A stretch of DNA of 64,000 nucleotides from Herpetosiphonaceae bacterium (GTDB lineage: Bacteria > Chloroflexota > Chloroflexia > Chloroflexales > Kallotenuaceae). The stretch spans positions 124,001 through 188,000 of the forward strand of contig DASUTC010000347.1 of NCBI GenBank assembly GCA_036374795.1. The letters are read 5' to 3'. The notes below the pieces were generated by a model, which was not told where the DNA came from, ran no database searches, and saw only the letters and a program-made list of their open reading frames with translations. The position numbers and the translations under genes are program-made. Shown one piece after another: positions 25,526-64,000 of the stretch. Numbering within the stretch: the stretch's first letter is position 1; every line of letters starts with the position of its first letter.

Positions 25526-26596
25526 ATGAGTTGCGACCAGAATCGAAAGACGTATGTTGCCGCGTTGACGAAGCATGGCGGACCGCTCGCCGATGCGCTT
25601 GGTGGCTCGGTGATCGCCCCGAAGGTGCTGGAGGCGGTGTTCAATGTGGCGCGCAATCAGCCGTTGCCCGACGATCCAGCAGAACGAGCGAGCCTGCTCG
25701 TGCAGGCCGAGAGCGCGACGCGCCTGTTGTTTGCACGGATGCGGCAGGCTGGGTTCACGCCACCAACCCATGCCGCGAACGGCCTCCCCCGGAAAGATGC
25801 CCAGCGTGGCTATGGAGCCATTCACCAGACGATTCGCGCGATCGAGCAGCGGCAGAACCTGCCGAAGCTGGCACATGCGATTCTGGAACAGCACACGCCT
25901 TCTGGAGCAGCACGGCATGTCCTCAAAACACTTCCACGGGTTGCCGCTATCACAGAAGCTGAGCGCTTGACCGATGAGGATCGTGATGCGTTGAGCGTGG
26001 CATGCGACTATCTGCTGCGCAGTGACAGTCCGGTGCCGATCCGCGCCTGGTCCGAGGCTCGGAACACGCCTGATTGGCAGATCGCCGCTCGTACCACAGC
26101 ACGCGCTATTTCCCTGCTTGCCGCCATGCCAAACGCCGTTTCCTCGACCACGTTTAAGGACGATCCCGGCGAGGTTCCAATCGGTGCCCGCTTGACCCTT
26201 TCCTGTGGCTGCGTTTGGGAGCGCACGGCTCGGGGACAGCGTGAAACGTCTGCGGCGTGGTTTCGGTTGCGCGAACGGTGCGATGGTAGATGTCCAAACG
26301 ACGCGCGGATCGGTGCTCGGCGATGGCTCCCGTCATCCGACAAAGATGCCCGCGTGCTTGGCCCGCAAACGTGGGAGGAGTGGGCGGTTAACAATGCCCA
26401 TTGCCTACCAAAGGATGTGTTCGACAAAGATGATATTGGTCGGCTGATGGGGATACCTGACGAGCCAGCTACCAGCGAAATGGCACACGTACGCCGTGTC
26501 GAGCGAGCGCTGGTGTTTGCTGGTCGCTTCGAGCTTGTTCGTGGTGGATGGAATCCCCGTTATCGGCTCCGACAGACGGATGAGGCAGGGGTATGA
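25526..26596 (+). CDS. MSCD-domain protein with C-terminal winged-helix-like segment, 356 aa
   Basis: The shortest of four window proteins sharing an N-terminal domain of about 120 residues: MSCDQNRKTY, then VLEAVFNVARNQP, RLLFARMRQAGFTPPTH and GLPRKDAQRGY. The middle has clustered cysteines (SCGCVW near 226 and RCDGRC near 252) that could bind zinc. The C-terminus (about 285-350) looks like a winged helix: a DIGRLMGIPD segment, then VRRVERALVFAGRFELVRGG and a YRLR wing. ATG at 25526 is chosen because it restores the shared MSCD start and has GGAG nine bases upstream, although the frame is open to 25403. Its stop overlaps the next start as ATGA, implying translational coupling. Function unknown; a DNA-binding member of the MSCD set is likely. 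GC is lower than in the conjugation genes. Confidence 0.8.
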   Translation: MSCDQNRKTYVAALTKHGGPLADALGGSVIAPKVLEAVFNVARNQPLPDDPAERASLLVQAESATRLLFARMRQAGFTPPTHAANGLPRKDAQRGYGAIHQTIRAIEQRQNLPKLAHAILEQHTPSGAARHVLKTLPRVAAITEAERLTDEDRDALSVACDYLLRSDSPVPIRAWSEARNTPDWQIAARTTARAISLLAAMPNAVSSTTFKDDPGEVPIGARLTLSCGCVWERTARGQRETSAAWFRLRERCDGRCPNDARIGARRWLPSSDKDARVLGPQTWEEWAVNNAHCLPKDVFDKDDIGRLMGIPDEPATSEMAHVRRVERALVFAGRFELVRGGWNPRYRLRQTDEAGV

Positions 26597-29500: not shown

Positions 29501-29727
29501 CCGAAACCTTGGCGCGTGGCAGCAGGCATGTCGCCGCCTCGATCATCGTCGATGGCATCCGGTCAGGAGAGCTGCGGTCGAAAGCGATTGTGGAGATTGC
29601 CACCAGCACCACCATTCCCGTTGGAGCCTGGGCCGCGTTCTACCGGGCAGCCGAGCGCATTCGTGCGCCGCGGTGGCGTGCGCCAGCGCTCGCCGCATTA
29701 GAGGACAACGCACGGCGACGGGCCTGA
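26593..29727 (+). CDS. MSCD-domain protein with four zinc knuckles and C-terminal helical repeats, 1044 aa
   Basis: Begins MSCDNNRAAF and contains the shared N-terminal domain to about residue 140. Four short Cys/His knuckles follow: CPQCGQFQDAAGQHAC (about 295), CPQCQQFMSPSRDHGC (about 495), CGGCPAYVADPAQHDC (about 613) and CPDCGAWMVADGSHAC (about 745). Each is CxxC...HxC, able to bind one zinc. Between them are helical segments of similar spacing, suggesting repeated modules. The last 280 residues resemble HEAT/TPR-like solenoid repeats (ALVEVARALGDRA, ARALAQLVPL). The start overlaps the previous stop by four bases. No enzyme motif is seen, so a scaffold or adaptor in a complex with the other MSCD proteins is the best guess. 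Confidence 0.82.
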   Translation: MSCDNNRAAFTTKMAADPAVAAALGNGDSNLAASVLESVYQTAKSQAERTDQRQWRSGDMSPSARAAFLAAQAGCTALFHRMLAAKLKPPVHGKPRPGHSLALPKSAAAQAGYAAIEQTLRAIEQGKPLPDVTHDLLAARGVRQHPSGPQRTVTAQMDALAGHLGTIPVDPDRPPLAGFLTALMRGALDPATMSEDELYQSMTRLIRTEEMQQAFMRVPRLLDLARGDVADGDPALRRELDRAAEGVVSAADDRDEPVPPALAAAAAAYQADPSTAAAFAVALAETAGLPRCPQCGQFQDAAGQHACAIRSVIDTFPALRVQTEPPYQDRQGLEQLTAPAVHAALTRAAQGLCGPAVPSRVRAAAETYLGATATGPSAAATRAFVAIVWAAGETTPATEQSHVRMREVIARRIEQLPCLNLVNGIHDQDARPAIAGLRGTANGLLSTPDAPIDWRLAAAAWQQQRPFNDWSPTAAHDVAFARFLAETSGLLRCPQCQQFMSPSRDHGCPAILPAAPIQVTPTIVAVASGRGSFPASFRQPSPDLQALVDLAQALAADPQTYGTARGAAANFLMRLHELETRYAIGVPVASLEGACLDLARAACEDAGLIHCGGCPAYVADPAQHDCPNDGSGWSVPRVIDEAVTTLATTPTLVDWLNRQRHAGLAASDALTDDELSAVLSAMVRFEDGAIDDELSTGAYALLTAVKQVGRVGLDTPQRGGTLQERIAAMALVDLLCRRAGRQRCPDCGAWMVADGSHACLTRLARQATAAARSPVDVRQRLQASQDLDDDARAAALGQLIAEGHADAVVGWVRQEERPRLQVRTLVQAAATLQGVTRQHTVQAALTCAAAIADDDVRAHALVEVARALGDRASDGPLADRALELARRVRVPAYRARALAQLVPLTAPDAQAAVVAEALTDLQAGVDSTIQYDVLSTLGATTPAAHLEPVVRATTLLKDTTHRDIVRSIITETLARGSRHVAASIIVDGIRSGELRSKAIVEIATSTTIPVGAWAAFYRAAERIRAPRWRAPALAALEDNARRRA

Positions 29728-30517: not shown

Positions 30518-31816
30518 ATGCCGAACCACCCGACCCCCGCACCCACCGACGCGCCTGACGTGGCCGTCGCCGATCAGCTGGCTGGCCTGCCGCTGCGGAT
30601 CGCCCTCGTCGATCTGGACGAGGATCTGACCCAGCCACGCCAGGAGTTTCCCGACGATCGCCAGCAGGAGCTGACCGCGAGCGTCGCCGCCGCCGGCATC
30701 CAGCAGCCGCTGCTCGTCCGTCCCGTGGGGAACGGCCGCTATGTCGTGGTCGATGGCGCCCGCCGCAAGCGCGCGGCGGAGGCGGCGGGCCTCCGCGAGG
30801 TACCCTGTGTCCTGTGCGACGAGGTGAATTGGCTTGCTGTCAAGCAGAGTCAGCTCATCACGAATGGCTTTCACCAGTCCCTGACGCCGCTGGAGCTGGC
30901 CCAGACGCTGGAGCTGCTCTGGCTCGGCCACCAGATCGCCGCCTTTGAAGCCGATGCGGGCGATGATGGCACGCAGACGGCGGTGCTCGTGGCGGCGGCG
31001 GGCAGTCCCGCCCGGCAGATCGCGGCGCTGCGCGACCGGCTCTGCGCGCTGTCCGGCTTTCCGAACCGCGACGCCTACCTGAGCAGCGGCGCCCACGTCC
31101 GCGTGTCCTGGACGACGGTCTTGGAGGCCATTGGCCTGGTGCAGATGACCGCTGACCAGCGCAAGCGTCTGCTGAGCCTGCTCGACCTGTCGCTGGAGGC
31201 CCAGGACGCGCTGGCCGGCGTCGACGTGAGCCAGCGCACCTTGCGGGAGCTGGCGCAGCGTCCGCCGGACGAGCAGCAGGCGCTCATCGCGCAGGCGCAG
31301 GATCAGGACGATGTCGGCGCGGCGCTGCGGCAGGCACTGAGCGCGCCGCTGCAGACCGACGCTGCACCGGAGCGGATCGCTGACTGGTCGCCCGAAGCCC
31401 TGGCCCAGGCTCTGGATGCGGCAGACACCGCGGACGCACCCAGCTCCGCCCGAGCCGGGCAGCGGGCTGCGCGCGGCGATCCTGACGACGGGCTGCCGCT
31501 GGATGTGGATGCCGATCAGCGCGCGACGTTTGAACCCGATCCGACGCTGGCGCTGCCGTTTTCAACCGGTCCAGGCCGGAAGCTGGTCTCGGAGCGGGGC
31601 GACATTGGCCGGGGCTCGCTGCCGCCGGATGGTCACGAGTATTGGTCCGAGGACGAAGCACTGCAGCTCTCCGGCGCGCTTGAGGCCGCCCTGAAGGTGC
31701 TGGACGGTGTCGGGCCGGGCTATCTGTCGGAGCAGCACTGCGGCTGGCTGCAACCGATGTGGCAGGAACTGGTCCTCCGCCTTGATGCTGCCGGGCTGGC
31801 GGCCCAGCCGGACTAG
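30518..31816 (+). CDS. ParB-like nuclease-fold protein A, 432 aa
   Basis: The N-terminal domain (about 28-110) matches ParB/Srx: LRIALVDLDED, then QQELTASVAAAGIQQPLLVRP and DGARRKRAAEAAG, the counterpart of the GERRxRA box that binds CTP in ParB. A helical middle region (about 130-280) could be the HTH part. The C-terminal half is acidic and Ala-rich, with no ParB dimerisation domain recognised. It is the first gene after promoter copy 3, 51 bases before a second ParB-like gene. No ParA ATPase is visible in the window, so classical partitioning is doubtful; site-specific loading or recruitment of the downstream AAA+/VWA machine is an alternative. Confidence 0.8.
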   Translation: MPNHPTPAPTDAPDVAVADQLAGLPLRIALVDLDEDLTQPRQEFPDDRQQELTASVAAAGIQQPLLVRPVGNGRYVVVDGARRKRAAEAAGLREVPCVLCDEVNWLAVKQSQLITNGFHQSLTPLELAQTLELLWLGHQIAAFEADAGDDGTQTAVLVAAAGSPARQIAALRDRLCALSGFPNRDAYLSSGAHVRVSWTTVLEAIGLVQMTADQRKRLLSLLDLSLEAQDALAGVDVSQRTLRELAQRPPDEQQALIAQAQDQDDVGAALRQALSAPLQTDAAPERIADWSPEALAQALDAADTADAPSSARAGQRAARGDPDDGLPLDVDADQRATFEPDPTLALPFSTGPGRKLVSERGDIGRGSLPPDGHEYWSEDEALQLSGALEAALKVLDGVGPGYLSEQHCGWLQPMWQELVLRLDAAGLAAQPD

Positions 31817-31867: not shown

Positions 31868-33043
31868 ATGCAGACATCTTCCCCCCAATCTGGCGCGGCC
31901 CGTGCTGCTGCGAGCGGCCCGGCGGCTGATCCGGGACCGCCCACGCTCCAGGTGCTGCCCGTGGCGGCGATTCGGACCACGGCGCAGAACCCACGGGCCA
32001 CCGAGACGGCACTGGACGATCTGATCGCCAGCCTGGCCGTCGAGTCCGAGCCGTATCTCGCGCAGCCGCCGTTGGTCGAGGACCGCGGCGACGGCGCGTA
32101 CCGGATCATCGCCGGCGAGCGGCGCGTGCGCGCGGTGACCGCGGCCGGCTGGGCGACGCTGGCCTGTCTGGTCTATCCCGCGCTTGATCCGGCCCTGGCC
32201 CACGAACTGCGCCTGGTCGAGAACCTCCACCGCGCCGCCCTCGATGCCCTGGACGAAGCCTGCGCGCTCCGCATCGCCTGGTTCCGCGCCAATGCCGATG
32301 CGCTGGGCGTCGGCGTCGCCGCACGGGACATCCTCGGACGGGAGCACCCGCCGACCGAGACGCTCGCGCAGCTGGGGGCGCTCCTCGCCACGGTGGGCTT
32401 CGCGCCGACCCGTCCGGTGGTGACCTGGGAGCAGGTGCTGGACCGCTTGGGGCTGGATCTCAGTCCGGCGCAGCGGAAGCGCCGGATGCGGTTGTTGTCG
32501 CTCGACAGCGCGGTGCAGGCGCAGGCCCGCGTGCTGGACCTCAGTCCGGCGGCGATGCGGGCGCTGGGGACGCTGGAGCCGGCCCAGCAACAGCGGCTGC
32601 TGCAGGAGGTTGCGGAGGACCCGCGCCTGGCCCGGAAGATTCGCCGCATCGCCAGCACGGTGACCAAGGGTACCTACACGCTGGACCAGGCGCTCGACGA
32701 GGCCCGCGGCCGGGTGCGGTTCGCGGCCGATCCGGACGGCGGCGCGGCCCGCGAGCTGCCAGCCCTGAGCGGGGACGCCGATGTGGGGGAACCAGGTGCG
32801 GCTGGGGGACCGGATGACGCGGCCGTGGCCGCTGCGGACAGCGGCCCTCCCCAACCGGATCAGACGGTGATCGATGCGGTCATGGAGCTGATTAACGTCG
32901 CCAGTTCCGTGACGTCCGCCGTCGCCACCTTCAAACGCGCCATCGGCACCCAGTCGATCGCCGCGCTGGGCGAGCCCTGGGGCGGCTATGCCCAGTACGC
33001 GCTCGCCCTGCTGCGCGATGCGACCACGGAGCTTCCAACCTGA
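31868..33043 (+). CDS. ParB-like nuclease-fold protein B, 391 aa
   Basis: Clearer ParB than its neighbour: LQVLPVAAIRTTAQNPR (about 28-44), then YRIIAGERRVRAVTAAGW (about 78-95) with the canonical GERR box, and ELRLVENLHRAALDALDEA at the junction to the HTH domain. Residues about 120-280 are helical with an HTH-like stretch. The C-terminus has a linker followed by a helical segment. The two ParB-like proteins differ in their box-II sequence (DGARRKRA against GERRVRAV), so they probably diverged in function; A may have weakened CTP binding. The MoxR-like gene follows after 41 bases. Confidence 0.85.
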   Translation: MQTSSPQSGAARAAASGPAADPGPPTLQVLPVAAIRTTAQNPRATETALDDLIASLAVESEPYLAQPPLVEDRGDGAYRIIAGERRVRAVTAAGWATLACLVYPALDPALAHELRLVENLHRAALDALDEACALRIAWFRANADALGVGVAARDILGREHPPTETLAQLGALLATVGFAPTRPVVTWEQVLDRLGLDLSPAQRKRRMRLLSLDSAVQAQARVLDLSPAAMRALGTLEPAQQQRLLQEVAEDPRLARKIRRIASTVTKGTYTLDQALDEARGRVRFAADPDGGAARELPALSGDADVGEPGAAGGPDDAAVAAADSGPPQPDQTVIDAVMELINVASSVTSAVATFKRAIGTQSIAALGEPWGGYAQYALALLRDATTELPT

Positions 33044-36926: not shown

Positions 36927-39900
36927 ATGTCCTGCGACGGAAATCGTACCAAATACTTTCAGCACGTCGTCGCCGGAGCGGGCGCGGGCGCGGGCGTGGG
37001 CGTGGCCGACCTGGAGCAGGTGTATCAGGCCCGGCGCGGGCAGCCGGCGGATCAGCACGCGGCGCTGACGGCGGAGGCCAAAACGCGCGCGCTGTTCCTG
37101 GCGATGCAGCAGGCTGGCTTCACCCCGCCGACGCATGCGGCGGATGGGCTACCCAGACGCGAGTCGCAGCCCGGCTATGCCGCCGTGTACGATCTCCTCA
37201 GACAGCGCGGGTGGCTCGGCAGCGGTCCTGGCCAGCCGGTCCAGCCGGCCCTGGCGATGGCGACCGCGCCGCAGCCAGTGGCGGCTGCGACCGGACCGGT
37301 GGTGCCGGATGCCGCCCGCGACGCCGCGCGAGCCGCGCTCGCGGCCTGCCCGGAGTTGATCGACCTCGTGGCGGATGCGTACACCTATCGTCAGGGACCG
37401 CACGGAGACAGAGATAGCGAGCACCTCGTGGCGCTTGCCAACGCCTGGTTCGCCGACCAGAGCCTGCCCCAGGATCTGCGGAATGCCGCCGGGACCTTTC
37501 GCGCCTATGCCACACACCACCCGGTCGCCGTCCGGTTTGCCACCACCGTCTGCGAAGCGGGGGGCCTGACGCGCTGTCCCCACTGCCAGCGCTTCCAAAG
37601 CCTGACGCTGGCCCATGTCTGTCCGCGGCCCAAGCCCCGGTACGACCGCAACGGCTACGACGCCGAAGGCTACAATCGCGAGGGCTACAATCGCGAGGGC
37701 TTCAACCGCAAAGGCCGCGACCGCGAGGGCTATGAGGCAAGCGGCTATAAAGCGGGCTATAACCGGCACGGCTATGACGCCAATGGCTATGACCGAAGCG
37801 GCCTGACGACGGCCGGCTACACCCGCGACGGCACGGATGCCAGCGGCTGGACCAAAGAAGGGTACCGGCCGGATGCGCAGCAGGTGCTGCGGGATCGCCA
37901 GGGCTACGATCGGGAGGGCTATGACGCGCAGGGCTACGACCGCCTGGGCTACGACCGCGCGGGCAAGGATCGGCAGGGCCAGTTCCACCCGCAGTGGCAG
38001 CCCGACGCGCAGGGCATCTATGGCGACGGCCTGGATGCCTGGGGCTGTGGGCCGGATGGCTATGATGCCCAGGGGCGGGACCGCTACGGCTTCGATCGCA
38101 GCGGGTATAACAGCGCGGGTTACGATCGCAACGGGTTCACCAAGCAGGGCCTGAACGCGGACGGCAACGATGCCGACGGCTACGATCGCGCCGGGTTCAA
38201 GGTCGGGCCGGACGGCGTGCCGCGGAACCGGGCGGGCTATGACGCCGAGGGCTATGACGCGCAGGGCTTCAGCTGGACCGGCTACGACAAAAACGGTCTG
38301 GATCGGCATGGCCAGCCGCGGATGACCACCGACCGGAAGGGCCAGCTGGTCGAACCGAAATACAACAAATCCGGCTGGGATAAAGACGGCTACGATCGCT
38401 GGGGCTATCACCGCAAGACCGGCCTGACCGCGCCCGATGCCCAGGGCGTGCAGCGCAACCCCTGGGGCTGGATCTATGACCCGGCGACGCAGGAATGTTA
38501 TGACCCGACCGATCCGGCGTACCGGGTGGCGCATACCGGCGATGGTGCCTTCTACGGCCCGGGGTCGTTCTGCTGGGATCGCTGGACGAAACGCGGGGTG
38601 GTGATCCGCAAGAGCGATGGGTATGGGCAGGACCGGGCGCAGCCGCGGATGCGCGCCCAGCCGGCCCCGCCGGTCACGCCCCATGCCGATATGACCTACG
38701 CCGACTACCGCCGCGCGCAGGGCAACGTGACCGGTCATTTCTACACGGTGCAGCAGACGGAAGAGCGGGCGAAAACCCAGTACCAGCAGATCCAGCATCC
38801 GACGCCGGAGCAGCGCTGGGCGACGGCGCGGGCGCGCTTCGACGACAAGGCGTGCTGGAATGGCGTGCTGCTGCGGTGTCCACACTGCGGGCAGTTCACC
38901 AGTGGCACGGATCACCGCTGCCCGTCGTTCCCGGCGCACGAAACCGGGGTCCGCACCTTCGTCTCGGGGCTGGTCATGTCGCAGAATGCGCTGGTGGTCG
39001 TGCCGGACAAGCCCGACTATGATCCGACCTATCAGTGGGGCGGGTACAATCAGCACGGATTTGATGCCGACGGCTATGACCGGCAGGGCTATAACCGGGC
39101 GGGGCAGGACCGCCAGGGCTATACGCGGGAAGGCTACGATGTCTTCGGCTATGATCGCCAGGGCTACGACCGGGATGGCTATAACCGCCAGGGCCTGGAC
39201 CGCGACGGCACCCCGAAACCCAAGACCATCGCCGAGGCCGCCCGGCACCTGGACGACGACGCCAGCCCGGTCGATAACAAGCACCTGGCCGATCTGTACA
39301 GCCGCCTGTGTAGCGGCCTGGTCGGCCAGCCACGCCGGGTGATCCTGCGACCGGGGGCGCTCTCCGTCAACCCGGTGACCGGGGAGCACCGGTACCTCAC
39401 GAGCGGCTTTGCGACCGATATGCGCGGCAAGATCATGGCCGATCCGACGCCGCTCGGCCCCAACGCCGATCCCCGCGATAACCTGATCGTCACCCGCGCG
39501 GGACTCTACCACGAAATCGGGCATGAGCAGTTCACGCCGCCGGAGCTGTGGGCGGCGGTGCTGGACGCGCACAAGAGCGAGACGCCGGTCGACTTTGAAA
39601 CGTCTACCGGCGGCACGCTCACCCTCGACGCGGGGCGGCGGTTTCTGCCGCAGATCTATAACCTCGTCGAGGATGGCCGGATGGAGCGCGAGGTGGCGCG
39701 GACCTATCCGGGCGCGGGCGAAATCATGGCGGCGAGCTGCCGGCTGGAAGACCGCTGGCACTGGCAGCCGGGGGAGCAGCGCGACGACTACGGGGACCTG
39801 ACCGGCGCGCTCTTGTATGAGGCGCTGCCCTACTATAAGGTCCGCCCGGAAGTCGTCGAGGAGCGGCTGTCGCCCCGCGCGCGGCGGCTGTTCGAGGAGT

Positions 39901-42134
39901 TGCGCCCCCTCGTGCGGCAGGCGGTCCACGGATCGCCGGACGATGCGTTCAATGCAGCCGTGATCATCGCCAGACGGCTGGAGGAGGAGGGGATCGTCGA
40001 TCATGACGAGGCCAAACGGCGCGGCATGACGCCGCCGCCACCGCCGCCCCCAGGCACCAAGGCCCGCCGGCCCAAGATCACGATCGACGGCGATCAGGTG
40101 ATCGACGCCAGCCAGATGGGCGGCGGTGGCGGTGGTGGTCCGGAGGTCGACGTCGAGTTTACGGGCCACGTCACGATCAAAAACGCCGATGCTCTGGATG
40201 GACAGCAGGGGGGCGGCCAGGCGACCTTCAGCGGCGGCGTGACCTATGAAGGGGGGCAGCCCAAAGGCGGGCAGCAGCGAGGCAACCAACAAGGCAACCA
40301 ACAGGGTGGTCAACAAGGCGGGCAAGCCGGTGGGCAGCAAAGCGGCCAGCAGGGCGGTCAGGCTGGGGGACAATCTGGGGGGCAGTCAGGCGGGCAGTCA
40401 GGTGGGCAGTCGGGCGGGCAATCCGGTGGACAATCCGGTGGACAGCAAGGCGGCCAGGCGGGCGGACAATCCGGGGGTCAATCCGGCGCTTCGTCTGAGG
40501 GACAAGCCGGCGGGCAGCAAGGTGGGCAGCAGGGCGGCCAACCAGGGAGCGACCCGTCTGGCCAGGCGGGGGGTGGTCGCGGACAGGGTAGCCAGGATGA
40601 TGACGCACCCGGTGGTCGCCGGCGTGGATCTGGGGCGGCCGAGGACGACGCGCCGACGGGACGGCGTCCGGCGGCGGCCGAGGAGGAGGCCGGCGGCGGT
40701 GGCGGTGGCGGTCGGACGGCCGAGGACGACGCAACCGGCACGGGCCGAGGTGGGGGAAGCGCGGGTGATGACGCGCCTACCGGGCGGCGGGACGCAGCGA
40801 CCGACGACGATGGGGCCGGTGGTGGCCAGGGTCGGACCGCTGAGGACGACGAACGCGGAACCGGTCACGGACTGGGTGGCACGGATGACGACGCTGCGGC
40901 GCCACCCCAACCAGGCGCGCCTGAGGACCCGGCGGGCGGTGGCGCTGACCCGCGCGTCGATGATGATGCGGCGGGAACCGGACGCGGCCGTGGCGCTGGT
41001 GCCGACGACGATGATGGGGACGACTGGGGCGCTGGCGATCCGTATGTGGGCGACGTCGACGGCGACGACGGGTACTTCTCCGATGACGGGGGGACCGTGT
41101 CCGGCTCGACCGGGCAGGTTGGCCGGGGTGGACGGGCCAGCGTCCAGGGTGGCAGCGGGCAGCTCCGCGATTGGGACTCGCCCTTTACCGAGGCGCAGAT
41201 CGTCGACGCGGTGGCCGAAGTCGAAGCCGCCGCCGCGCATGCGATCGAAGAAGGCGTCCGCGCGGCGGCGACGCCCGAAGCGCTGGGCCGCGATCTCCAC
41301 CGGCCGATGGACAATCGCGCAGCAACCCGCCAACGCTACAAAACCCCCGATGGGCGCGTCGAAACGGTCCAGGTCGCCACGCCCAAGAGTGGCAATGCGC
41401 CGCTCAACGACTCGCTGGAGCGGCGCCGGCCCAGGCATCGGGAGATTGCGCGGGATCTGGCCAGGCAGCTCAAGGCGATTCGCGAGCAGACGGATCAGCG
41501 CCTGCGCTATCAAAAGGACGGCCGGATCGACCGGCGGCGCTTTGTGGCGGCGGTCAAAGGCGCGGAGGATGTCAAAACCCGGATCAAAGAGCTGCCGGCG
41601 ACGGCGTTTGCGGCGAGCGTGGCGGTGGATCTGTCGGGCAGTATGGCGACGCTGATCCAGAATGCCTCGCTCTTCGACGCGACGATGATCCTGAGCGACA
41701 CGTTTGAGGATCTGGCGATCGCGCACGAGGTGCGGGGCTTTGGCTCGGATGCCGCGCAGTTCAAGTCGATGGGTGATCCACGCTTCGATCCGGAGCGCTC
41801 GGCCGTGCTGGCGGCCGGCAACCGGGGTGGGACCAACATGGCGGGCACGGCCGGCCTGGCGACGCAGGCGCTGCGGGCGCGCGAGGAAGGCAACAAGCTG
41901 TTTGTCGCGCTGAGCGATGGCGCGCTGGGCGATCACCAGGAGGCCGTCGCGATCTTGAAGGAGGCGCGGCGGAACGGGGTGGTGACCTTTGGGATCTTCT
42001 TAGGGACCCGCGCGCCGACGCAGCAGATGGACGAGCTGTATGGGCCAGGCAACTGGGTCCAGATCAACGACATCAAGGATTTTCCGGTGTCGGTCGGACG
42101 GCGCATCTCCCAGATCTTCAAGCAGTTGCGCTGA
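36927..42134 (+). CDS. MSCD-domain CobT-like metalloprotease/VWA protein, 1735 aa
   Basis: A mosaic giant. Order: shared MSCD domain (1-120); zinc knuckle CPHCQRFQSLTLAHVC (about 216); a first block of (Y/F)(D/N)xxG five/six-residue repeats (about 238-495); second knuckle CPHCGQFTSGTDHRC (about 651); a shorter repeat block (about 700-762); a CobT-like domain with LYHEIGHEQFT (about 860), an HExxH-type zinc site, and the downstream NLVEDGRMEREVARTYPGA element; a Gly/Gln repeat region (about 1105-1215); a long Asp/Gly-rich acidic tract; and a C-terminal VWA domain with MIDAS residues DLSGS (about 1567), GGTNMAGT and LSDG. VWA-MoxR pairs act as chelatases or remodelling machines. The extra metalloprotease-like motif and low-complexity blocks are unusual. 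Start is at the conserved MSCD, with AAAGG upstream. Confidence 0.87.
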   Translation: MSCDGNRTKYFQHVVAGAGAGAGVGVADLEQVYQARRGQPADQHAALTAEAKTRALFLAMQQAGFTPPTHAADGLPRRESQPGYAAVYDLLRQRGWLGSGPGQPVQPALAMATAPQPVAAATGPVVPDAARDAARAALAACPELIDLVADAYTYRQGPHGDRDSEHLVALANAWFADQSLPQDLRNAAGTFRAYATHHPVAVRFATTVCEAGGLTRCPHCQRFQSLTLAHVCPRPKPRYDRNGYDAEGYNREGYNREGFNRKGRDREGYEASGYKAGYNRHGYDANGYDRSGLTTAGYTRDGTDASGWTKEGYRPDAQQVLRDRQGYDREGYDAQGYDRLGYDRAGKDRQGQFHPQWQPDAQGIYGDGLDAWGCGPDGYDAQGRDRYGFDRSGYNSAGYDRNGFTKQGLNADGNDADGYDRAGFKVGPDGVPRNRAGYDAEGYDAQGFSWTGYDKNGLDRHGQPRMTTDRKGQLVEPKYNKSGWDKDGYDRWGYHRKTGLTAPDAQGVQRNPWGWIYDPATQECYDPTDPAYRVAHTGDGAFYGPGSFCWDRWTKRGVVIRKSDGYGQDRAQPRMRAQPAPPVTPHADMTYADYRRAQGNVTGHFYTVQQTEERAKTQYQQIQHPTPEQRWATARARFDDKACWNGVLLRCPHCGQFTSGTDHRCPSFPAHETGVRTFVSGLVMSQNALVVVPDKPDYDPTYQWGGYNQHGFDADGYDRQGYNRAGQDRQGYTREGYDVFGYDRQGYDRDGYNRQGLDRDGTPKPKTIAEAARHLDDDASPVDNKHLADLYSRLCSGLVGQPRRVILRPGALSVNPVTGEHRYLTSGFATDMRGKIMADPTPLGPNADPRDNLIVTRAGLYHEIGHEQFTPPELWAAVLDAHKSETPVDFETSTGGTLTLDAGRRFLPQIYNLVEDGRMEREVARTYPGAGEIMAASCRLEDRWHWQPGEQRDDYGDLTGALLYEALPYYKVRPEVVEERLSPRARRLFEELRPLVRQAVHGSPDDAFNAAVIIARRLEEEGIVDHDEAKRRGMTPPPPPPPGTKARRPKITIDGDQVIDASQMGGGGGGGPEVDVEFTGHVTIKNADALDGQQGGGQATFSGGVTYEGGQPKGGQQRGNQQGNQQGGQQGGQAGGQQSGQQGGQAGGQSGGQSGGQSGGQSGGQSGGQSGGQQGGQAGGQSGGQSGASSEGQAGGQQGGQQGGQPGSDPSGQAGGGRGQGSQDDDAPGGRRRGSGAAEDDAPTGRRPAAAEEEAGGGGGGGRTAEDDATGTGRGGGSAGDDAPTGRRDAATDDDGAGGGQGRTAEDDERGTGHGLGGTDDDAAAPPQPGAPEDPAGGGADPRVDDDAAGTGRGRGAGADDDDGDDWGAGDPYVGDVDGDDGYFSDDGGTVSGSTGQVGRGGRASVQGGSGQLRDWDSPFTEAQIVDAVAEVEAAAAHAIEEGVRAAATPEALGRDLHRPMDNRAATRQRYKTPDGRVETVQVATPKSGNAPLNDSLERRRPRHREIARDLARQLKAIREQTDQRLRYQKDGRIDRRRFVAAVKGAEDVKTRIKELPATAFAASVAVDLSGSMATLIQNASLFDATMILSDTFEDLAIAHEVRGFGSDAAQFKSMGDPRFDPERSAVLAAGNRGGTNMAGTAGLATQALRAREEGNKLFVALSDGALGDHQEAVAILKEARRNGVVTFGIFLGTRAPTQQMDELYGPGNWVQINDIKDFPVSVGRRISQIFKQLR
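37640..38420 (+). repeat. Tandem (Y/F)(D/N)xxG coding repeats
   Basis: Dozens of 15-18-base units (core GGCTAYGAYCGN) code for GYDRxGYDxxGY strings inside the VWA gene. A second short block is at 39025-39210. Tyr/Gly/Asp periodicity suggests an extended or beta-solenoid-like stalk, or a phase-separating low-complexity segment. Confidence 0.85.
40250..40560 (+). repeat. GGQ/GQS low-complexity coding repeats
   Basis: About 300 bases of 9-15-base units code for GGQQGGQAGGQSGG-type sequence between the CobT-like domain and the acidic tract. It is likely disordered and prone to length variation. Confidence 0.85.
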
Positions 42135-55711: not shown

Positions 55712-56884
55712 TTACCAGTTGACGTAATCCACCGCGTTATCATCCAGGGCATCCTGATCGTGGGCATAGCGCATCGTCGTCTTCGGATCGCTATGCCGTG
55801 CGGCGGCCTGGACCTTGGTCAGCGATGCGCCGCCCTTCAGCGCCAGCGTCACGAACGAGTGGCGCAGCCCGTGGGGCGTCACCTTCGTCCGGCGCGCCTG
55901 CTGCGCGGTGTTCCCTTTGCCGGGGCGGGCCGCCCGGGATTCGGCCTCGGGATCGAGCTTCAGGTGCAGCTTCGCCTGCGTGAAGCGCGTTTGCAGAATG
56001 TATTTCAGACCATCATAGGTCAGCGGGCCGTGGATCGCGTAGCGCCGCGGCGCATCGGGCTGCTGGGGATCGCGGCCTTTGTGCCGCAGGCGGCGGAACA
56101 CCGCGCCGTCGGTGATCTGCTCCGCGCGCAGTGCCTGAAGGTAGCGCTGCAGCACCTGCCACGTCCGCGGCTTGAGCTTGACCCGATCGCGCTGGTTGCC
56201 TTTGCCGGTGATCCACACGACGCGATGCCCATCGATTTCGGCGAGATCGGCAAAGGTGATCCGCAGCACCTCGCTGGAGCGGAGGCCGGTCGAGAGCATC
56301 AAGACGATCAGCGCATGGTCGCGCAGGTCGCGCAGGGTCGGTCCCTGGCATTCGTCTTCGAGCGTGCGGGCTTCCTGGCGGCTCAAGTAGATCGTGGTAC
56401 TCTGCTGGCTGACCTTGGGCTTTTTGATCTCCTCCATCGGGTTCAGGGCGATCAGGTGGTAGCGCAGCAGGCGGTTGTAGAGCAGACGCAAGGGCGTGAG
56501 GCGGCGACTGATCGTGGCGGGCTGTAAGCCGACGGCGAGGTGGCGGATATAGGCGCTGATGTCAGCTTCCGTCACCTGCTGGATGCGGGTGAGCGCGGCC
56601 TGGATCTGGCGTGTGAGGTCGGGCGAGGTCTGAAGGTGTTCGGGATCGGCGGGCAGCGTGACGGCAATGCCGAGATAGACCAGAAAATCCTGGAGGTCGC
56701 TGCGATAGGCACGGCGGGTTTGCTCCGAGCGACCGCGCAGGATCACCTCGGCCAGCACGTCGGCGAGGGTGCGTGGCGGCAGGGCCGGTCGTGACGGCGG
56801 AGGCGGCAGCTCGACGATGACCTCCGTGGCCTGCGGCTCAACGCGGGCGAGTGCCGTATCTGGCGCGTGGGGCGATTTAGGCAT
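55712..56884 (-). CDS. Tyrosine recombinase/integrase, 390 aa
   Basis: Phage-integrase family (XerC/D-like). The N-terminal SAM-like core-binding domain runs from about 45 to 145 (SEQTRRAYRSDLQDFLVYLG). The catalytic residues are present in order: Arg in LSTGLRSSEVLRI (about 200), Lys in WITGKGNQRDRVKL (about 230), His-x-x-Arg in TPHGLRHSFVTLAL (about 343), His in AAARHSDPKTTMRYAH (about 367) and the nucleophile Tyr in RYAH (about 372). AGGAGGT four bases before the ATG is a perfect ribosome-binding site. It adjoins the pPIWI-RE island and may have moved it, or may serve a larger element; attachment sites were not found. Confidence 0.92.
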   Translation of the reverse strand: MPKSPHAPDTALARVEPQATEVIVELPPPPSRPALPPRTLADVLAEVILRGRSEQTRRAYRSDLQDFLVYLGIAVTLPADPEHLQTSPDLTRQIQAALTRIQQVTEADISAYIRHLAVGLQPATISRRLTPLRLLYNRLLRYHLIALNPMEEIKKPKVSQQSTTIYLSRQEARTLEDECQGPTLRDLRDHALIVLMLSTGLRSSEVLRITFADLAEIDGHRVVWITGKGNQRDRVKLKPRTWQVLQRYLQALRAEQITDGAVFRRLRHKGRDPQQPDAPRRYAIHGPLTYDGLKYILQTRFTQAKLHLKLDPEAESRAARPGKGNTAQQARRTKVTPHGLRHSFVTLALKGGASLTKVQAAARHSDPKTTMRYAHDQDALDDNAVDYVNW

Positions 56885-56960: not shown

Positions 56961-57283
56961 CCGGTTACTCCAAAGAATACACATTATCAGGAGTTAATAA
57001 CAGTGGTAAATGGACCGATAATGACGAAGCAATTGTCGGATCTCTCTTCGGTGTACCTGAAGCATGAGGCCCTCCGATCTGTGCCAGTTCCATCACTCAA
57101 CGTGACACTGCCCTCCTGAGATGGGGCATCCAGCACCGGGTCAGAAACGTACCCTCGACGTACCTGCCTCTCCGCGACAGCAGCACGAGGTCTTCTGAGC
57201 AGCTACCTCGTTGGGCGCCGCTTGAGAAAGCGGCGCGGCAATGACCGACGAGAAAATCCGCGAAGTTGCTTCATCAGCGAGTC
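56961..57283. other. Intergenic AT-richer spacer before the pPIWI-RE island
   Basis: Visibly richer in A and T than flanking genes. It contains a 7-base perfect inverted repeat, CATTATC (56982-56988) and GATAATG (57017-57023), that could be a recombinase or regulator site. A frame from 57241 reads into the nuclease gene but runs across the promoter and operator, so it is not taken as the true start. Confidence 0.45.
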
Positions 57284-57312
57284 TTGACAAGTATGTTCTG
57301 CTCCTGTATAGT
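57284..57312 (+). promoter_or_regulatory. Near-consensus sigma-70 promoter of the pPIWI-RE island
   Basis: TTGACA at 57284-57289 and TATAGT at 57307-57312 are separated by exactly 17 bases. Transcription would begin around 57318-57320, inside the first AACAAATGTT box and about 27 bases before the ATG at 57346. Confidence 0.8.
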
Positions 57313-57315: not shown

Positions 57316-57340
57316 AACAAATGTTACTATAACAAATGTT
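57316..57340 (+). promoter_or_regulatory. Twin AACAAATGTT operator, LexA-box-like
   Basis: AACAAATGTT occurs at 57316-57325 and 57331-57340. Each box has palindromic arms AACA...TGTT, and the two are 15 bases apart, overlapping the predicted transcription start. The Gram-positive LexA box CGAACATATGTTCG has core AACATATGTT, one base different. The downstream gene begins with a LexA-like winged helix, so autorepression is the natural reading. Confidence 0.65.
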
Positions 57341-57345: not shown

Positions 57346-58704
57346 ATGCCTGAACTTACCGAGAACGAGATTGCCCTCCTCCATCTTATCGATCGGGTGA
57401 CCCGAGAGAATGGTGGACAAAATCCGACCTTAGCAGAAATCGCATTAGCGGCAGGATTGCCGAGTAGTGGACGAGCCACAATCCAGCGTCAGTTGTCGCG
57501 CTTGCGCCCAACCTATGTCGACTGGAGCGGCAGTGCCCGCTCGTTGCATCTTACCCCAGCGGGATTAGCCGAACTCGGCCGTGGCACCTCAACGGCCGCG
57601 ATTACCGCCCCCATTAATGATGTGATCGTGTCCTTGCTTGCGGTCGGGTTAACGCATCTTACTACGCGCATCGAACTCGATGCGGTGTTACATGCACCTT
57701 ACCACGATGCGTGGGAGCGTGGCGCTCGGATGTTAGCTTTTGAGTGCCTCATTCGCGGACTTCCGGCACCGGCACACCTCGGTGTCGTCATCAACGACTG
57801 GTGTCGTCACGCTCCCCGTGACTGGCCCCTGCCGCTTGGCGCATCAGGACGGCTGTACGATGAGCCACTCCTCAACGAGGACAACGAACTGACGCCCCTG
57901 TGTCGAGAGTTGGCACATGGGTTGGAGTATGGCGACGCCGAACTGGAGCTCTGTGAAGCACAGATGGGCGTTGTTCGCACGCTTGCCCAGGGGCGACGCA
58001 GCCAAGATGGGTATGTCGCCTTTCGCCGCTTCGTGATCGAACATCCGGTGGCCACGCAGGACGAGATTAGCGATGCAGCAGCCGTGCGGACTCTGACGCC
58101 ATTCGCCGCTCACCTTCATGAGCTGTATGAGCGCATCCCCACGACCGCCATTCATCACGGACACCTCCTGCTCTGTGGTCACTGTGGCTGGACACTTGAG
58201 CGCATGAAGGGACGACTCCGGTGTGGTAGCCCTCGCTGCCGAGTCTTGACGGAAAACTTCAGTCGTGGCACGGCCACCCGACCGTTTAATACAGATGATC
58301 CGCCACTGCGCGTCCGGCGCGCGATCCGCCAATACGTCGTTGCTCCTGGAATCTACGAACTTAACCTCGTCCGCCAAGTCGAAGCTCTCGGGCTGACCTG
58401 CCAGCTCTGGCCCTTCTATGACCGTTATGACGTGCGCGTGATCTTTGACGACGGCACGACGTGGGCGGTCGATCTCAAGGACTGGCAACATCCCCATCTG
58501 CTTGGGCGGCATCTGACGACCTTCGCCGATGAGGCACCGGACTGGCGGCAGTTCTTCTTCGCAATTCCTGATGCCCGCCTTGCCGAGAACGCTGCCTATC
58601 TCACCATCCTACGCGAGCTGGCCGGGAGTGATGCCTTCACCATTCTCACCATTAGCGATCTTGTAGCCCGGATCACGCGGCGGAAGGAGCAGGGGTATGC
58701 GTGA
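57346..58704 (+). CDS. pPIWI-RE island nuclease subunit with LexA-like winged helix (pPIWI_RE_Y/REase type), 452 aa
   Basis: Predicted DNA-binding nuclease. Residues 3-70 align with the LexA DNA-binding domain: LTENEIALLHLIDRV, PTLAEIALAAGLPSS, then a GSARSLHLT wing. After a helical middle comes a zinc ribbon CGHCGWTLERMKGRLRC...C (about 277-297). The C-terminal domain has YDVRVIFDDGTTWAVDLKDW (about 360-379), with Asp...Asp-x-Lys of the PD-(D/E)xK fold. In three-gene pPIWI-RE islands a REase-fold protein, a DinG-like helicase and the PIWI protein are encoded together, as here. ATG at 57346 is chosen over the upstream frame start at 57241 because the promoter and operator lie between them; no clear ribosome-binding site precedes it, so the leader is atypical. 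The stop overlaps the helicase start by eight bases. Confidence 0.8.
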   Translation: MPELTENEIALLHLIDRVTRENGGQNPTLAEIALAAGLPSSGRATIQRQLSRLRPTYVDWSGSARSLHLTPAGLAELGRGTSTAAITAPINDVIVSLLAVGLTHLTTRIELDAVLHAPYHDAWERGARMLAFECLIRGLPAPAHLGVVINDWCRHAPRDWPLPLGASGRLYDEPLLNEDNELTPLCRELAHGLEYGDAELELCEAQMGVVRTLAQGRRSQDGYVAFRRFVIEHPVATQDEISDAAAVRTLTPFAAHLHELYERIPTTAIHHGHLLLCGHCGWTLERMKGRLRCGSPRCRVLTENFSRGTATRPFNTDDPPLRVRRAIRQYVVAPGIYELNLVRQVEALGLTCQLWPFYDRYDVRVIFDDGTTWAVDLKDWQHPHLLGRHLTTFADEAPDWRQFFFAIPDARLAENAAYLTILRELAGSDAFTILTISDLVARITRRKEQGYA

Positions 58705-61700
58705 GACCATGCGCTGGCGCGACGGACTCATGCGGGAATTTGAAGCGGCTCGCGTTGCCTATGGACGACCAAGCATGGCCCCAGCCGACCTGCTGGAGAC
58801 CGAGTTGATCTTGACCTTGCTCGCCGACTACTTGCCAGGTGAGGCACCAGACTTGGCGTGGACGGTATTGAACGGTCATCCCTTCCCGGCGCGTGAACGG
58901 CTCTCGGAGGCAGCACGCCGCGCGATTGCCTGCGTGCGCCAGCATCTGCGCGCACCCCTCGGGCGCGGCACCTGGGAGCGTTGGTTGAGCGAGTATAGCA
59001 CCCTTGCCGAGCCCTACCCGATCTACCGTATCCGCAATGGGCAGATCGTGCCAGTCCCCTCCACGCTTGCCCCAGATCGGTGTGCGGTCATGCGCACGAC
59101 CTTCGAGAAGGCGCCGCCCTGGGCGGTGGCGCACCCACGGTTTGCTTCCCCAGGAGCCTACCGCTTCCCCATCGATCGGGAGCCGTTCGAGGTCGAGATC
59201 GATGGGCGAACGGCGGCTCTTGTCCAGGGGTTCGCAGCAAGGAGCGTTGCCCCATCGCAGGCTCGTCCACCGCTTGACGTATCACTCAACGCGCTGCGCG
59301 CAACTGCGCACTGGATGGATAGCATGCTCGGCACGGATCGCTGGGCAACCTCGATGGATATTCAATTACGCGCGGTCACTGCGTCAGGCTTCGTGCCTGC
59401 CGACACGCTCCGCCTCGACGGACTGTGCCACCTGATCGGCATGCTGGGCAGCGGCAAGTCTACCCTCCTGACGGTCCTGGCTGTCCACTTCGCGCGCGAA
59501 GGGTTGCGCGTCGTACTGGTCTATGGCGATGTCGCAACGCTCCTCCGTGAACTTGAGCAGTACGAGCGGCTCCATGCTGCCGATGCGCGCATTCGGGCCA
59601 TGCCCCTGATTGGCCGGAGTACCCGCCTGGCGCACCTCAATCGCCTCCATGCCGCCGAGCATGACCGGGGCAAGGCCGGACTGCAACTCGACCATGCGGG
59701 CTTTGCGATCCTTTCTACGCTCTGTCCGCTGGATGGACTCCGCCCGGACAGCCGTCCCATCCCGCCTGGCCAGGAGCCATGTACCGCACTGGTCGAAGCA
59801 CCTCAGGGCGACGACGAAGAACACCAGCCGGTCACCTGCCCGTTGCTGCCAGCCTGCCCAGTCCATCAGCCGACTCGAACGCTCCTCGATGCGTCGATCT
59901 GGCTGGCGACCCCGGCGAGTCTCCTCGCAAGCAGCCCGCAGAGTCCACTCATTCGGGAGCGCATGCGCTTCATCGAGATGGTGATGTGGTCCGCCGACGT
60001 GGTCCTCGTTGACGAGGCAGATATGGTCCAGGCGCAGTTTGATGACCGCTTTGCCCAGACCGAGGTGCTGATCGGTCGCGCCAATGCGTGGTTCGACCGT
60101 CTCTATGCCCAGGTTGCCCGCCAAGTGTATCGCCCCGGACGACCTCTGCTTGGTCGCTCGCGTCCCTTCGACCGCTGGTTGGCTGCCCACAATAATGCGC
60201 AGCGGGCAGCCGATAGCCTCCTCCGCCTGCTTCGCGATGATGAGATGTTACGGCACTGGCTCCGTGCCAGCTACTTTACTGGCCGCCGCCTGCTGCAGCG
60301 ATTGGCCTATCATCTTGAGCACGAGTACGGACGCGATGTCGCCCTCTTCATGGAGGCTAGCGAGGTCTTTAGCCACAACCCCTTGGGTCGCACCGGACGC
60401 CCGCGACCCTCCACCGCCTGGGTTGACGCCGTGCGGCTCCATCTCCTCGGCGCGGATCACCACGAGACCCGCGACCTCGTGGAATCGTCGCTTGCCGACC
60501 TTGTACCGGGTATTGAGCGTCTGCACGCCCAAGTACGGGAAACCCTCGCTTCGCGCCTGCTCGCGGCGCTCCTGGTGACCGTGCTGGATGAGGCACTGCG
60601 ACAGGTGATCACTGGCTGGTCAACCGCTGAGGAGATTCTTGACCTCGACAAAGGCAGCGGCGGTCTGTTCTTTCCGCCCTCAGAGAGCGTGACTCGCATG
60701 GTGCCTGAAGCACCCACCGGCGCAATCCTGGGCTTTCAGTATTACGATCCGCAGGACAACGGGCAAGGCGAACTCCGCTTTTTCCGCTTGCGTGGCCTCG
60801 GCCGCGCACTGCTCTATCATCTGCATGATGCCTTCATACCAACGGATAGCGTCCCAGGCCCACATGTCCTCCTCACCAGTGGGACATCCTGGGCACCAGG
60901 TTCCTGGCGGTACCACCTGCATCGCGCTCCAGATTATGCATTGCTGCCGACACGGGCTGACCAAACCGCCCAGACGCGCTGTTTCTGGACGTTCGTTCCT
61001 GATCCCGATCCCCGCGCTCGTGGGCGCTTTCTGCACGTCTCGGGTAAGTCGGCACCGCAAGACCGGATCAACGCATTGACGGCGATGGTCCGTGCGTTGG
61101 GGCATCGCACGACCATCGGCGGGGTACCACGCAGCATCTTCGATGACGAGTTCAGGAAGCTTGATTCGCACCGCCAGCGTATCCTCCTCGTCGTGGGTAG
61201 CTACCAGGAAGCCGAGTACGTCGAGCAAGCCTTATCTGATGTCCTTGGAGTCGCAGCGGGTGAGGCAGTGGTCGCGCTCATTCCAGATGTTGACGGCGAC
61301 CTGCAACTGCGCAGGCCACAGGCGAAGCTGCGACGTAGCAACCTTGCCAGACTGCCGGAATTGCAGGGCGTGCGGTTTCTCGTGGCACCACTGCAGGCGA
61401 TCGAGCGTGGTCACAACATTCTCGTCGGTCAGGAAGCGGCGATCGGAAGTGTCTTCTTCTTGACTCGCCCGCTGCCAGTGCCCGGGGATCTGCATATTGC
61501 CATCCAAAAGATCAACGCCTGGGCGATGGATGCAGCGGGGACGTGTGATCTCCCAACTGTTGGGGCGGCCGGCGCATGGCTCCGCGCAGAGGCTGACCGC
61601 CGGTGGCGAATGGTTTCGCCGGACGGGGTAGGACAGGCAACCTATCGGGGCATGTCGGACCGCACGGGATTGCTGTGGACCCAACTGGTCCTTGTCTGGC

Positions 61701-61945
61701 AATGCATTGGCCGCCTGTTGCGTGGCGGTGTGCCAGCACGAGTCCATTTTGTGGATGCAAAGTGGGCCGAAGTTCGGGCCGGCCTTGTGGCGGGCGAACG
61801 GGACACGGAAGCCACGAGCATGGTCGTCGGATTTCACCGCCTGTTGCAGGAAGCCCTGCACGATCCCGATCCGGCGCAGGCTGCCATCGCTGAGGCTCTG
61901 TATGGATCATTTGCTCAGGCGTTGCAGCGCCTCATAGACCGATAA
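58697..61945 (+). CDS. pPIWI-RE island helicase, XPD/DinG-like superfamily 2 (pPIWI_RE_Z type), 1082 aa
   Basis: ATP-dependent helicase. A specific N-terminal domain (about 1-235) precedes Walker A GMLGSGKST (about 249-257). Between Walker A and Walker B lie four cysteines near 341, 360, 380 and 387 (in LCPLDGL, EPCTAL, VTCPLL and PACPVH), the position of the iron-sulfur cluster in XPD and DinG. Walker B is VVLVDEADMV (about 434-443), a DEAD box. The second RecA-like lobe includes ILLVVGSYQEAEYVEQAL (about 830), LVAPLQAIERGHNI (about 895) and motif VI in LVWQCIGRLLRGG (about 1000). GGAAGGAG lies upstream, and the start overlaps the nuclease stop, so the two are coupled. It is predicted to unwind the target duplex or an R-loop for the PIWI protein. 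Confidence 0.85.
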   Translation: MRETMRWRDGLMREFEAARVAYGRPSMAPADLLETELILTLLADYLPGEAPDLAWTVLNGHPFPARERLSEAARRAIACVRQHLRAPLGRGTWERWLSEYSTLAEPYPIYRIRNGQIVPVPSTLAPDRCAVMRTTFEKAPPWAVAHPRFASPGAYRFPIDREPFEVEIDGRTAALVQGFAARSVAPSQARPPLDVSLNALRATAHWMDSMLGTDRWATSMDIQLRAVTASGFVPADTLRLDGLCHLIGMLGSGKSTLLTVLAVHFAREGLRVVLVYGDVATLLRELEQYERLHAADARIRAMPLIGRSTRLAHLNRLHAAEHDRGKAGLQLDHAGFAILSTLCPLDGLRPDSRPIPPGQEPCTALVEAPQGDDEEHQPVTCPLLPACPVHQPTRTLLDASIWLATPASLLASSPQSPLIRERMRFIEMVMWSADVVLVDEADMVQAQFDDRFAQTEVLIGRANAWFDRLYAQVARQVYRPGRPLLGRSRPFDRWLAAHNNAQRAADSLLRLLRDDEMLRHWLRASYFTGRRLLQRLAYHLEHEYGRDVALFMEASEVFSHNPLGRTGRPRPSTAWVDAVRLHLLGADHHETRDLVESSLADLVPGIERLHAQVRETLASRLLAALLVTVLDEALRQVITGWSTAEEILDLDKGSGGLFFPPSESVTRMVPEAPTGAILGFQYYDPQDNGQGELRFFRLRGLGRALLYHLHDAFIPTDSVPGPHVLLTSGTSWAPGSWRYHLHRAPDYALLPTRADQTAQTRCFWTFVPDPDPRARGRFLHVSGKSAPQDRINALTAMVRALGHRTTIGGVPRSIFDDEFRKLDSHRQRILLVVGSYQEAEYVEQALSDVLGVAAGEAVVALIPDVDGDLQLRRPQAKLRRSNLARLPELQGVRFLVAPLQAIERGHNILVGQEAAIGSVFFLTRPLPVPGDLHIAIQKINAWAMDAAGTCDLPTVGAAGAWLRAEADRRWRMVSPDGVGQATYRGMSDRTGLLWTQLVLVWQCIGRLLRGGVPARVHFVDAKWAEVRAGLVAGERDTEATSMVVGFHRLLQEALHDPDPAQAAIAEALYGSFAQALQRLIDR

Positions 61946-62001: not shown

Positions 62002-64000
62002 GTGGCACATGAACAGATCCAGCCGGTTGCCTTCCACCTCGTCGAGTCCAGCTTAACGTTGCCGCTCCGCGCCATGCATTTTCCCTACGAGTGGCGCGGA
62101 CCCTTGGCGGCGCTGGCAGGAGAAGGAGCGCGGGCCGACCGCCCACGGTCGTTCCGCATTGCTTCTCTAAATGCGGCCATCGCGGCCTTCACTCCGCAAC
62201 TCTTTGTCACACCCGGCCAGGCCCACTATTCGGACCGCCCATGGTTGATCGCCGCAGCGGATGTCCGTCCTGATAAGATCTGGCGAATTGCACGTGCCTG
62301 GCTTGCTGAACAGTACGCCGAGCGGGAAGATCTGGCCACGGCATATGAAGCCTCCTACGCCGCACTCCAGGCTGAGGATCTGGTGTGGGAGGACTTTACC
62401 TTTGTCCGGAACAATGATGTCCACGTCAACGATACTGCACGGATCGATACCTTGACGTATGCAGCCCTGCCGGCGTTCATTGCGGATCTCCTGGTGCGTC
62501 GCCAGGTCGCAATCCCGATTCAGCAAACGATGCGTCCACTGGTGCGTGTACCGACAACCAACGGTGGGGCGCAGCTTCAAACCTGGCCCCCAGTCTACTA
62601 TACCGAGGACAATAGCGGGCGACGCGGAGCCTATAGCTACACGATCACGATCACCGTACAGAACCTGGTCGGGTGTTCGCGTCCACGCATTCATATGGCC
62701 TATGGCATCCGTCGCTGGCGATTGTTGCCGCTTCGGACTGAAGAGTCCTTGTACCTCCCAGGACGTGAGGGTCGTACTGTGTATCTGCGCCACCCTCGCC
62801 CGCTCAGCGGTGTTGCGCAGTCATCGCACTTCACGCGGGCGATGCTTGATGCCGAATTTGGTCAAAACCAGCGCGTGCCGGTCTGGCGGGATGCGCTGGC
62901 TGGCATTGCGAGCCGGATCGGGGCAGCACTGCCCGATCCCAGCGAACTGACCTCTCATCCCGAACGCTATCTGGAACCCATGGATGAGGATACGGTCATC
63001 GCCGCAATCGTCGAGAAAACGCCACGGAATCATCCAGTCAAGGCGGGCATGGGCCTGGAAGTACGCGAGGCCATCACCGAGGCGATTGCCCACCCCATGG
63101 ACGAAGTGCTGACTCTCATTGCGCCGCTTGAGCGCTCCGACACGACGGGTAAACCTCAGCGTAACGCAGCGATGCTCGCGGACGATCTTCGTGATCTTCC
63201 AGCTGAAGAGCGACTCCAGGCAGTACGCGACTCGATCGGACCGCGCGTGGTGGTCGAGGTCTGGTGGCAGACCCAGGAGGGCCGCAACCAACTCATCTAC
63301 GGTTTGCATGATATGCTGACTGGGCCACGTCCTCCGCTTGAGGAGGTCGGCGAGCCAGAGCTACCTCTGTCCGCACCGCTCGCCGAGCAGCACACCATGT
63401 TCGACACTGCAGCACCGTCGGCTCCTGAACTGTCCGACCTGAACAAGCCGCGTAGCAAGGTCACACGCAAGCGGGCCACGCCAGAAATCCCGCCGATTGA
63501 TCCGTCAATGGAACACATCATTCCGCTCCCAGATGGCGGAATGATCCAGGTCGTCCCGCGTGCGCTAGATACCATCGGGCGGATGTTGCCGGAGCCCACT
63601 GAGGCGGACCAGAAGCACAAGGGTGAGTACAAGCGGCGCGAGACAGATCGTCGGGCTAAGGAGATTCAGGAGGCACTCGAACCCGCCGCAGTACCAACAC
63701 TTGCCCTGATTGAACTTCAGCACTTTCAGGACCCACGGGACCGGCAACGTCGCCGCTTGGTTGGTCTGCGTGATCCCAAACGGGCACTCCGGCTCGGTAT
63801 GGCCGACACTGGCCGGGTGACGAAGTTCACCACGGGGAAGTTCCATCCAGATCAGCAAGGAAAACCGCAGGGCCGGACACGCCTAACCCCCGCAGAGTTG
63901 CTGCGCGAACGGTGTGACAATGCGGTGTTGGAAGGTCTCCGTCAGATGGGATACCTGCCGGGACGCATCACCGTGACACCACCTGACGGTCACTCCTTGC
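62002..64000 (+). CDS. pPIWI-RE protein, C-terminus cut by the window end (666 codons visible)
   Basis: Starts at GTG 62002 with GAAGGAG ten bases upstream and runs open to the edge. The N-terminal X domain (DUF3962-like) is recognisable from AYSYTITITVQNLVGCSRPR and HMAYGIRRWRLLPL (about 215-245). A helical region and a Pro/charged linker (about 430-560) follow. The MID-like part begins LALIELQHFQDPRDRQRRRL and contains DPKRALRLGMADTGRVTKF (about 590-608), a hallmark of pPIWI-RE proteins, then RERCDNAVLEGLRQMGYLP. The RNase H-fold PIWI domain with its characteristic Arg and Glu must lie beyond the window, so catalytic status cannot be judged. The family was proposed (Burroughs, Iyer and Aravind) to mediate RNA-dependent restriction of invading DNA with the helicase and nuclease encoded upstream. 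Confidence 0.85.
   Translation, partial: MAHEQIQPVAFHLVESSLTLPLRAMHFPYEWRGPLAALAGEGARADRPRSFRIASLNAAIAAFTPQLFVTPGQAHYSDRPWLIAAADVRPDKIWRIARAWLAEQYAEREDLATAYEASYAALQAEDLVWEDFTFVRNNDVHVNDTARIDTLTYAALPAFIADLLVRRQVAIPIQQTMRPLVRVPTTNGGAQLQTWPPVYYTEDNSGRRGAYSYTITITVQNLVGCSRPRIHMAYGIRRWRLLPLRTEESLYLPGREGRTVYLRHPRPLSGVAQSSHFTRAMLDAEFGQNQRVPVWRDALAGIASRIGAALPDPSELTSHPERYLEPMDEDTVIAAIVEKTPRNHPVKAGMGLEVREAITEAIAHPMDEVLTLIAPLERSDTTGKPQRNAAMLADDLRDLPAEERLQAVRDSIGPRVVVEVWWQTQEGRNQLIYGLHDMLTGPRPPLEEVGEPELPLSAPLAEQHTMFDTAAPSAPELSDLNKPRSKVTRKRATPEIPPIDPSMEHIIPLPDGGMIQVVPRALDTIGRMLPEPTEADQKHKGEYKRRETDRRAKEIQEALEPAAVPTLALIELQHFQDPRDRQRRRLVGLRDPKRALRLGMADTGRVTKFTTGKFHPDQQGKPQGRTRLTPAELLRERCDNAVLEGLRQMGYLPGRITVTPPDGHSL

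Follow-up and report, generated by a model that had tools for sequence, protein, structure and literature searches.

A LexA-like head on a pPIWI-RE nuclease and a conserved candidate operator at the promoter of its own operon

The gene at 57346–58704 is pprRE, the first gene of a pPIWI-RE three-gene island. We propose from sequence comparison that the LexA-like head of its product, PprRE, recognizes a tandem pair of AAC-N4-GTT boxes where transcription of its own operon starts and represses that operon, a reading to which we assign a probability of roughly 0.7. Neither the fusion of a LexA-type head to a restriction endonuclease (REase) nor the idea of autoregulation is new, as both were in print in 2013; what is new here is computational evidence pointing to a cognate operator of PprRE.

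Results

Starting within the analyzed stretch of DNA (64,000 nucleotides, hereafter the window), pprRE, a DinG-type helicase gene, and a pPIWI-RE gene constitute a complete pPIWI-RE three-gene island, for which the following domains and operon features were computed:

57346–58704, + strand: pprRE gene, encoding a LexA-type winged helix-turn-helix (wHTH), Y domain, zinc ribbon, and REase, 452 aa (PF18154, PF18156; PADLOC PprRE E = 2.4e-42)
57346–57573, + strand: LexA-like winged helix, residues 1–76 (AF2 of residues 1–81, pLDDT 86.6; Foldseek; weak PF01726)
57628–58056, + strand: pPIWI_RE_Y helical domain, residues 95–237 (PF18156 E = 2.1e-24)
58174–58239, + strand: C4 zinc ribbon, C277/C280/C293/C298 (Cys invariant in 4 orthologues)
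58348–58692, + strand: pPIWI_RE_REase with PD-(D/E)xK core, residues 335–449 (PF18154 E = 2e-30)
58697–61945, + strand: DinG-type helicase gene with pPIWI_RE_Z domain (PF18155 E = 1.4e-29; PprDinG E = 4.5e-174)
62002–64000, + strand: 5' part of the pPIWI-RE gene, which continues past the window (972 aa in full; PF13111 and PF18157 in the window)

The helicase gene overlaps pprRE by 8 nt, and the pPIWI-RE protein carries its pPIWI_RE_X and MID domains in the window and RNaseH_pPIWI_RE (PF13032) beyond it, in L056. The preliminary description had read 57346–58704 as a LexA winged helix joined to a zinc ribbon and a nuclease fold, and this was borne out: the open reading frame (ORF) is real, the expected N-terminal winged helix is found in the predicted structure (AF2, residues 1–81), the four Cys of the predicted C4 zinc ribbon are invariant, and PF18154 matches the nuclease. 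The predicted REase active-site motif is kept (D362...D376-L-K378, the last three residues encoded at 58471–58479), and VD(V/L)K at this motif is common to the orthologues L012 and L016. The preliminary description overlooked the operon context and the Y domain (PF18156), a helical region of ~140 aa between the winged-helix head and the zinc ribbon; the order Y, zinc ribbon, REase is that of the REase of the pPIWI-RE three-gene island. Solved structures, searched by sequence, offered nothing relevant, and we found no study of a PprRE in the literature searched.

Several neighboring genes were also of interest. An RNase HI gene (L056:3629–4222; PF00075 E = 1.8e-44) lies beyond the window end, some 0.2 kb past the pPIWI-RE gene, a notable position given that RNA–DNA hybrids are the presumed substrate of the system; no such gene was seen after pPIWI-RE at the other loci searched, the majority of which end near that point. 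A tyrosine recombinase (55712–56884, − strand) adjoins pprRE divergently, and tyrosine recombinases are likewise divergent neighbors of pprRE in G279 (L059:8339–8938, 26% identical) and in a Calothrix plasmid (L023:4126–5196, annotated as phage integrase), which suggests that pPIWI-RE islands travel with a recombinase. Elsewhere in the window, a weak match to the TraG/TraD C terminus, together with two ParB_N genes (19133–21190, 30518–31813, and 31868–33040), indicates an element of conjugative or plasmid origin, and two very large ORFs (36927–42134, 1735 aa; 26593–29727, 1044 aa) have no Pfam or PADLOC match.

We then considered the affinity of the PprRE head. Residues 1–81, modeled with AF2 from a two-sequence alignment (mean pLDDT 86.6), form a classic winged helix (H1-H2-H3-strand-strand-H); the full-length model, built on three alignment rows with a mean pLDDT of 48, was used only for the head and, cautiously, for the REase segment. 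Foldseek related the head to repressors of the winged-helix type, among them the DNA-binding domain of LexA (1lea, TM 0.64/0.70) and Thermotoga maritima LexA 3k2z, with DtxR/MntR ranked above LexA. Since none of these matches reached E ≤ 0.001, fold alone does not single out LexA. By sequence, however, the head leans to LexA. PF01726 aligns to residues 1–54 below its cut-off (E = 0.002; 18.3 versus 23.7 bits) and matches the orthologue L012 above it (2.4e-5). In other Chloroflexota-phylum genomes, a PprRE profile retrieved LexA-like proteins at E of about 1e-4, aligned from residue 6 to approximately residue 90; judged by sequence, several of these are complete LexA. In addition, a profile–profile comparison of the head with host LexAs gave P = 3e-5 over 41 residues. 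Pfam detected no S24 peptidase half in PprRE, which is therefore not a LexA.

Upstream of pprRE, the DNA combines a near-consensus promoter with two identical boxes:

57284–57289, + strand: −35 element TTGACA (consensus scan; aligned and identical in L009)
57307–57312, + strand: −10 element TATAGT (consensus scan; TATACT in L009)
57316–57325, + strand: candidate operator box 1, AACAAATGTT (identical in L009)
57331–57340, + strand: candidate operator box 2, AACAAATGTT (identical in L009; 15 bp from box 1)

The promoter (TTGACA-17-TATAGT, 57284–57312) agrees with consensus at 11/12 positions with a 17-nt spacer. It is directly followed by TGCAACAAATGTTACTATAACAAATGTTGCACTATG, the last ATG of which is the start codon, so that the near-palindromic boxes, arranged in tandem as AACAAATGTT-N5-AACAAATGTT, lie between promoter and start codon, over the expected +1. 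A start at 57346 is supported because the other in-frame ATG, at 57241, comes before the −10 element, and because the 71%-identical orthologue L009 begins at the aligned ATG. A conserved candidate operator is hence found at the promoter of pprRE itself, as sought for an autorepressor.

Next, we evaluated the conservation of the boxes. Between pprRE and L009, 26/29 bases of the candidate operator are identical, against synonymous sites so saturated that dS was not computable (48/76 third positions differ in the head), and DNA upstream of the promoter is unalignable. The more distant orthologues L012 and L016 (43–46% identical proteins, from another class) carry ACAACATACGTTGTACAACGTGTGTTGT and AACAAATGTTTTTACAACAAACGTTGT a short distance before the start; in L012, the likely −10 precedes the boxes by about 40 bp, an arrangement less typical of a repressor. 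Across 21 upstream regions (4 LexA-headed and 17 others, 11 of them headless; L036, on the same contig as L009, was counted once), tandem AAC-N4-GTT boxes occurred in 4/4 LexA-headed pprRE genes, and in 0/11 HTH-less genes, 0/4 genes of the cyanobacterial wHTH class, and 0/2 MerR-headed genes. This LexA-headed sample comprises four loci, two from one genus, and the motif was derived from the first locus, so that only the other three test it. The tandem pattern was reached in 0–1 of 2000 shuffles, and genome-wide counts are as low as 2 in G000, 2 in G279, and 3 in G124, with one place per genome at pprRE and the others with no common gene. A motif-free test gave a weaker signal in the same direction: an excess of direct repeats over shuffles (p < 0.05) was seen upstream of 7/10 headed genes and of 0/10 headless ones, with L012 significant for inverted repeats only, and L016 and L053 for neither direct nor inverted repeats.

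Alternatively, the boxes might belong to host LexA, placing the island under SOS control and leaving the PprRE head with another purpose. The ppr boxes do follow the AAC-N4-GTT pattern of LexA sites, CAGAACATTGGTGC and CGAACAGGCGTGC are found in the lexA and recA promoters of this genome, and ACA-N2-TGT is common to the ppr boxes and some host LexA boxes. However, host boxes in this genome and order start with GAAC or GCAC and are placed between the −35 and −10 elements, unlike the ppr boxes, which read C/T-AAC...GTT-G/A/T and are found in tandem near +1. Moreover, G279 and G124 (another class) show the same tandem form although both the LexA head and the lexA promoter differ, and HTH-less pprRE genes of the same order have no tandem boxes. 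We thus regard control by host LexA as unlikely, although some cross-binding of host LexA to the ppr boxes is conceivable.

Less likely still, the head could be a targeting module guiding the nuclease to sequences in invading DNA rather than a regulator, a role raised as an alternative by Burroughs et al. 2013 (PMC3702460). Yet 2.9 million viral contigs contained the complete tandem site (two AACAAATGTT boxes) in only 7 stretches, near which no PprRE-like ORF was seen, and single AACAAATGTT boxes within the window occur at chance frequency; in addition, since conserved boxes lie at the promoter of its gene, a nuclease devoted purely to targeting would risk cutting its own DNA. No relative turned up in phage records or, in a protein search, in viral contigs. 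The boxes and their conservation favor predicted self-binding of PprRE at its promoter over target selection. Finally, the motif is short and few loci were sampled, but a chance or non-regulatory repeat is very improbable for boxes kept against saturated synonymous sites and present in every LexA-headed gene.

Most PprRE relatives found are HTH-less Y–zinc ribbon–REase proteins, some of which start at the Y domain in the same order and phylum (e.g., L010, L011, L014, L015, and L017–L021), while relatives on cyanobacterial plasmids have either a winged helix of a distinct kind or a head of the MerR type. Since most relatives are HTH-less and other clades carry these other heads, an older, HTH-less REase most likely acquired the heads, and the direction proposed in the preliminary description, in which a nuclease replaced the S24 half of LexA, appears to be wrong. 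Four cyanobacterial loci (L023, L052, L053, and L054), whose different winged helix is annotated as "Fis family", have three GAAACAT iterons just upstream of −35, and two Nostoc plasmid loci (L025 and L026) have two to three TTGCATAG iterons upstream of a MerR-headed pprRE. Because AAC-N4-GTT, GAAACAT, and TTGCATAG follow head type, each of the three head classes has its own iterated site; the iterons of the cyanobacterial and MerR loci precede the promoter, a position from which they could serve activation.

Discussion

Taken together, a LexA-type winged helix on a nuclease and conserved tandem boxes at the promoter of the same gene make it likely that this nuclease reads DNA at an operator, as the preliminary description had suggested. 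We infer that PprRE is the protein that binds the boxes and that binding means repression, so that the ppr operon is probably autorepressed. PprRE would likely bind the boxes as dimers via its head, and as the dimerization half of LexA is absent, the Y domain, the zinc ribbon, or the REase would have to provide dimerization. Bound PprRE may then block transcription, keeping PprRE, the co-transcribed DinG helicase, and PIWI-RE low, and the enzyme complex would, following the published model, restrict invading DNA at RNA–DNA hybrids. The release of the promoter during invasion, also put forward in the preliminary description, is speculative: recruitment of PprRE with DinG and PIWI-RE to RNA–DNA hybrids of the invader could leave less free PprRE and so free the promoter. 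In this scenario, PprRE would be both nuclease and sensor-regulator, leaving its operator for invader complexes such that induction of the operon would scale with the threat, and other clades would do likewise with other heads and operators, a broader proposal that we consider possible but doubtful.

The 2013 account left the HTH heads of pPIWI-RE nucleases undecided between regulating the operon and choosing targets. The conserved 29-bp operator candidate makes this question testable by gel shift and reporter assays, and the head-specific iterons of other clades suggest a general rule. An operator would also offer a route to studying how the poorly known pPIWI-RE systems switch on; for one of these, the abstract of PMC10991935 reports the PIWI-RE of P. 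stutzeri to be an active guided nuclease in vitro.

The closest known protein is the REase subunit of the pPIWI-RE three-gene island (PMC3702460; PF18156/PF18154; PADLOC PprRE), which, in the available part of that source, has the same Y, zinc ribbon, and REase domains and comes first in an operon, followed by DinG and pPIWI-RE. Some members are there given a LexA-type N-terminal HTH, the HTH types listed for these REases being LexA, TetR, MerR, and an uncharacterized clade, and autoregulation or target choice is proposed for the LexA-type HTHs. No operator or promoter is described in that part, whereas a conserved tandem operator candidate is found here. PprRE resembles the LexA repressor (PF01726 and S24) in its N-terminal winged helix and in the AAC-N4-GTT-like sites at its own promoter; unlike LexA, it has neither S24 peptidase nor autocleavage switch. 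Known Gram-positive LexA sites read GAAC-N4-GTTC, which the ppr AAC-N4-GTT boxes resemble, although in the latter the outer base is C/T rather than G and the boxes are in tandem, 14–15 bp apart. The controller (C) proteins of restriction-modification systems are HTH proteins that autoregulate a restriction operon via tandem operator sites. PprRE is not a member of this group: C proteins are separate small HTH proteins, whereas in the ppr operon the proposed regulator would be the nuclease itself.
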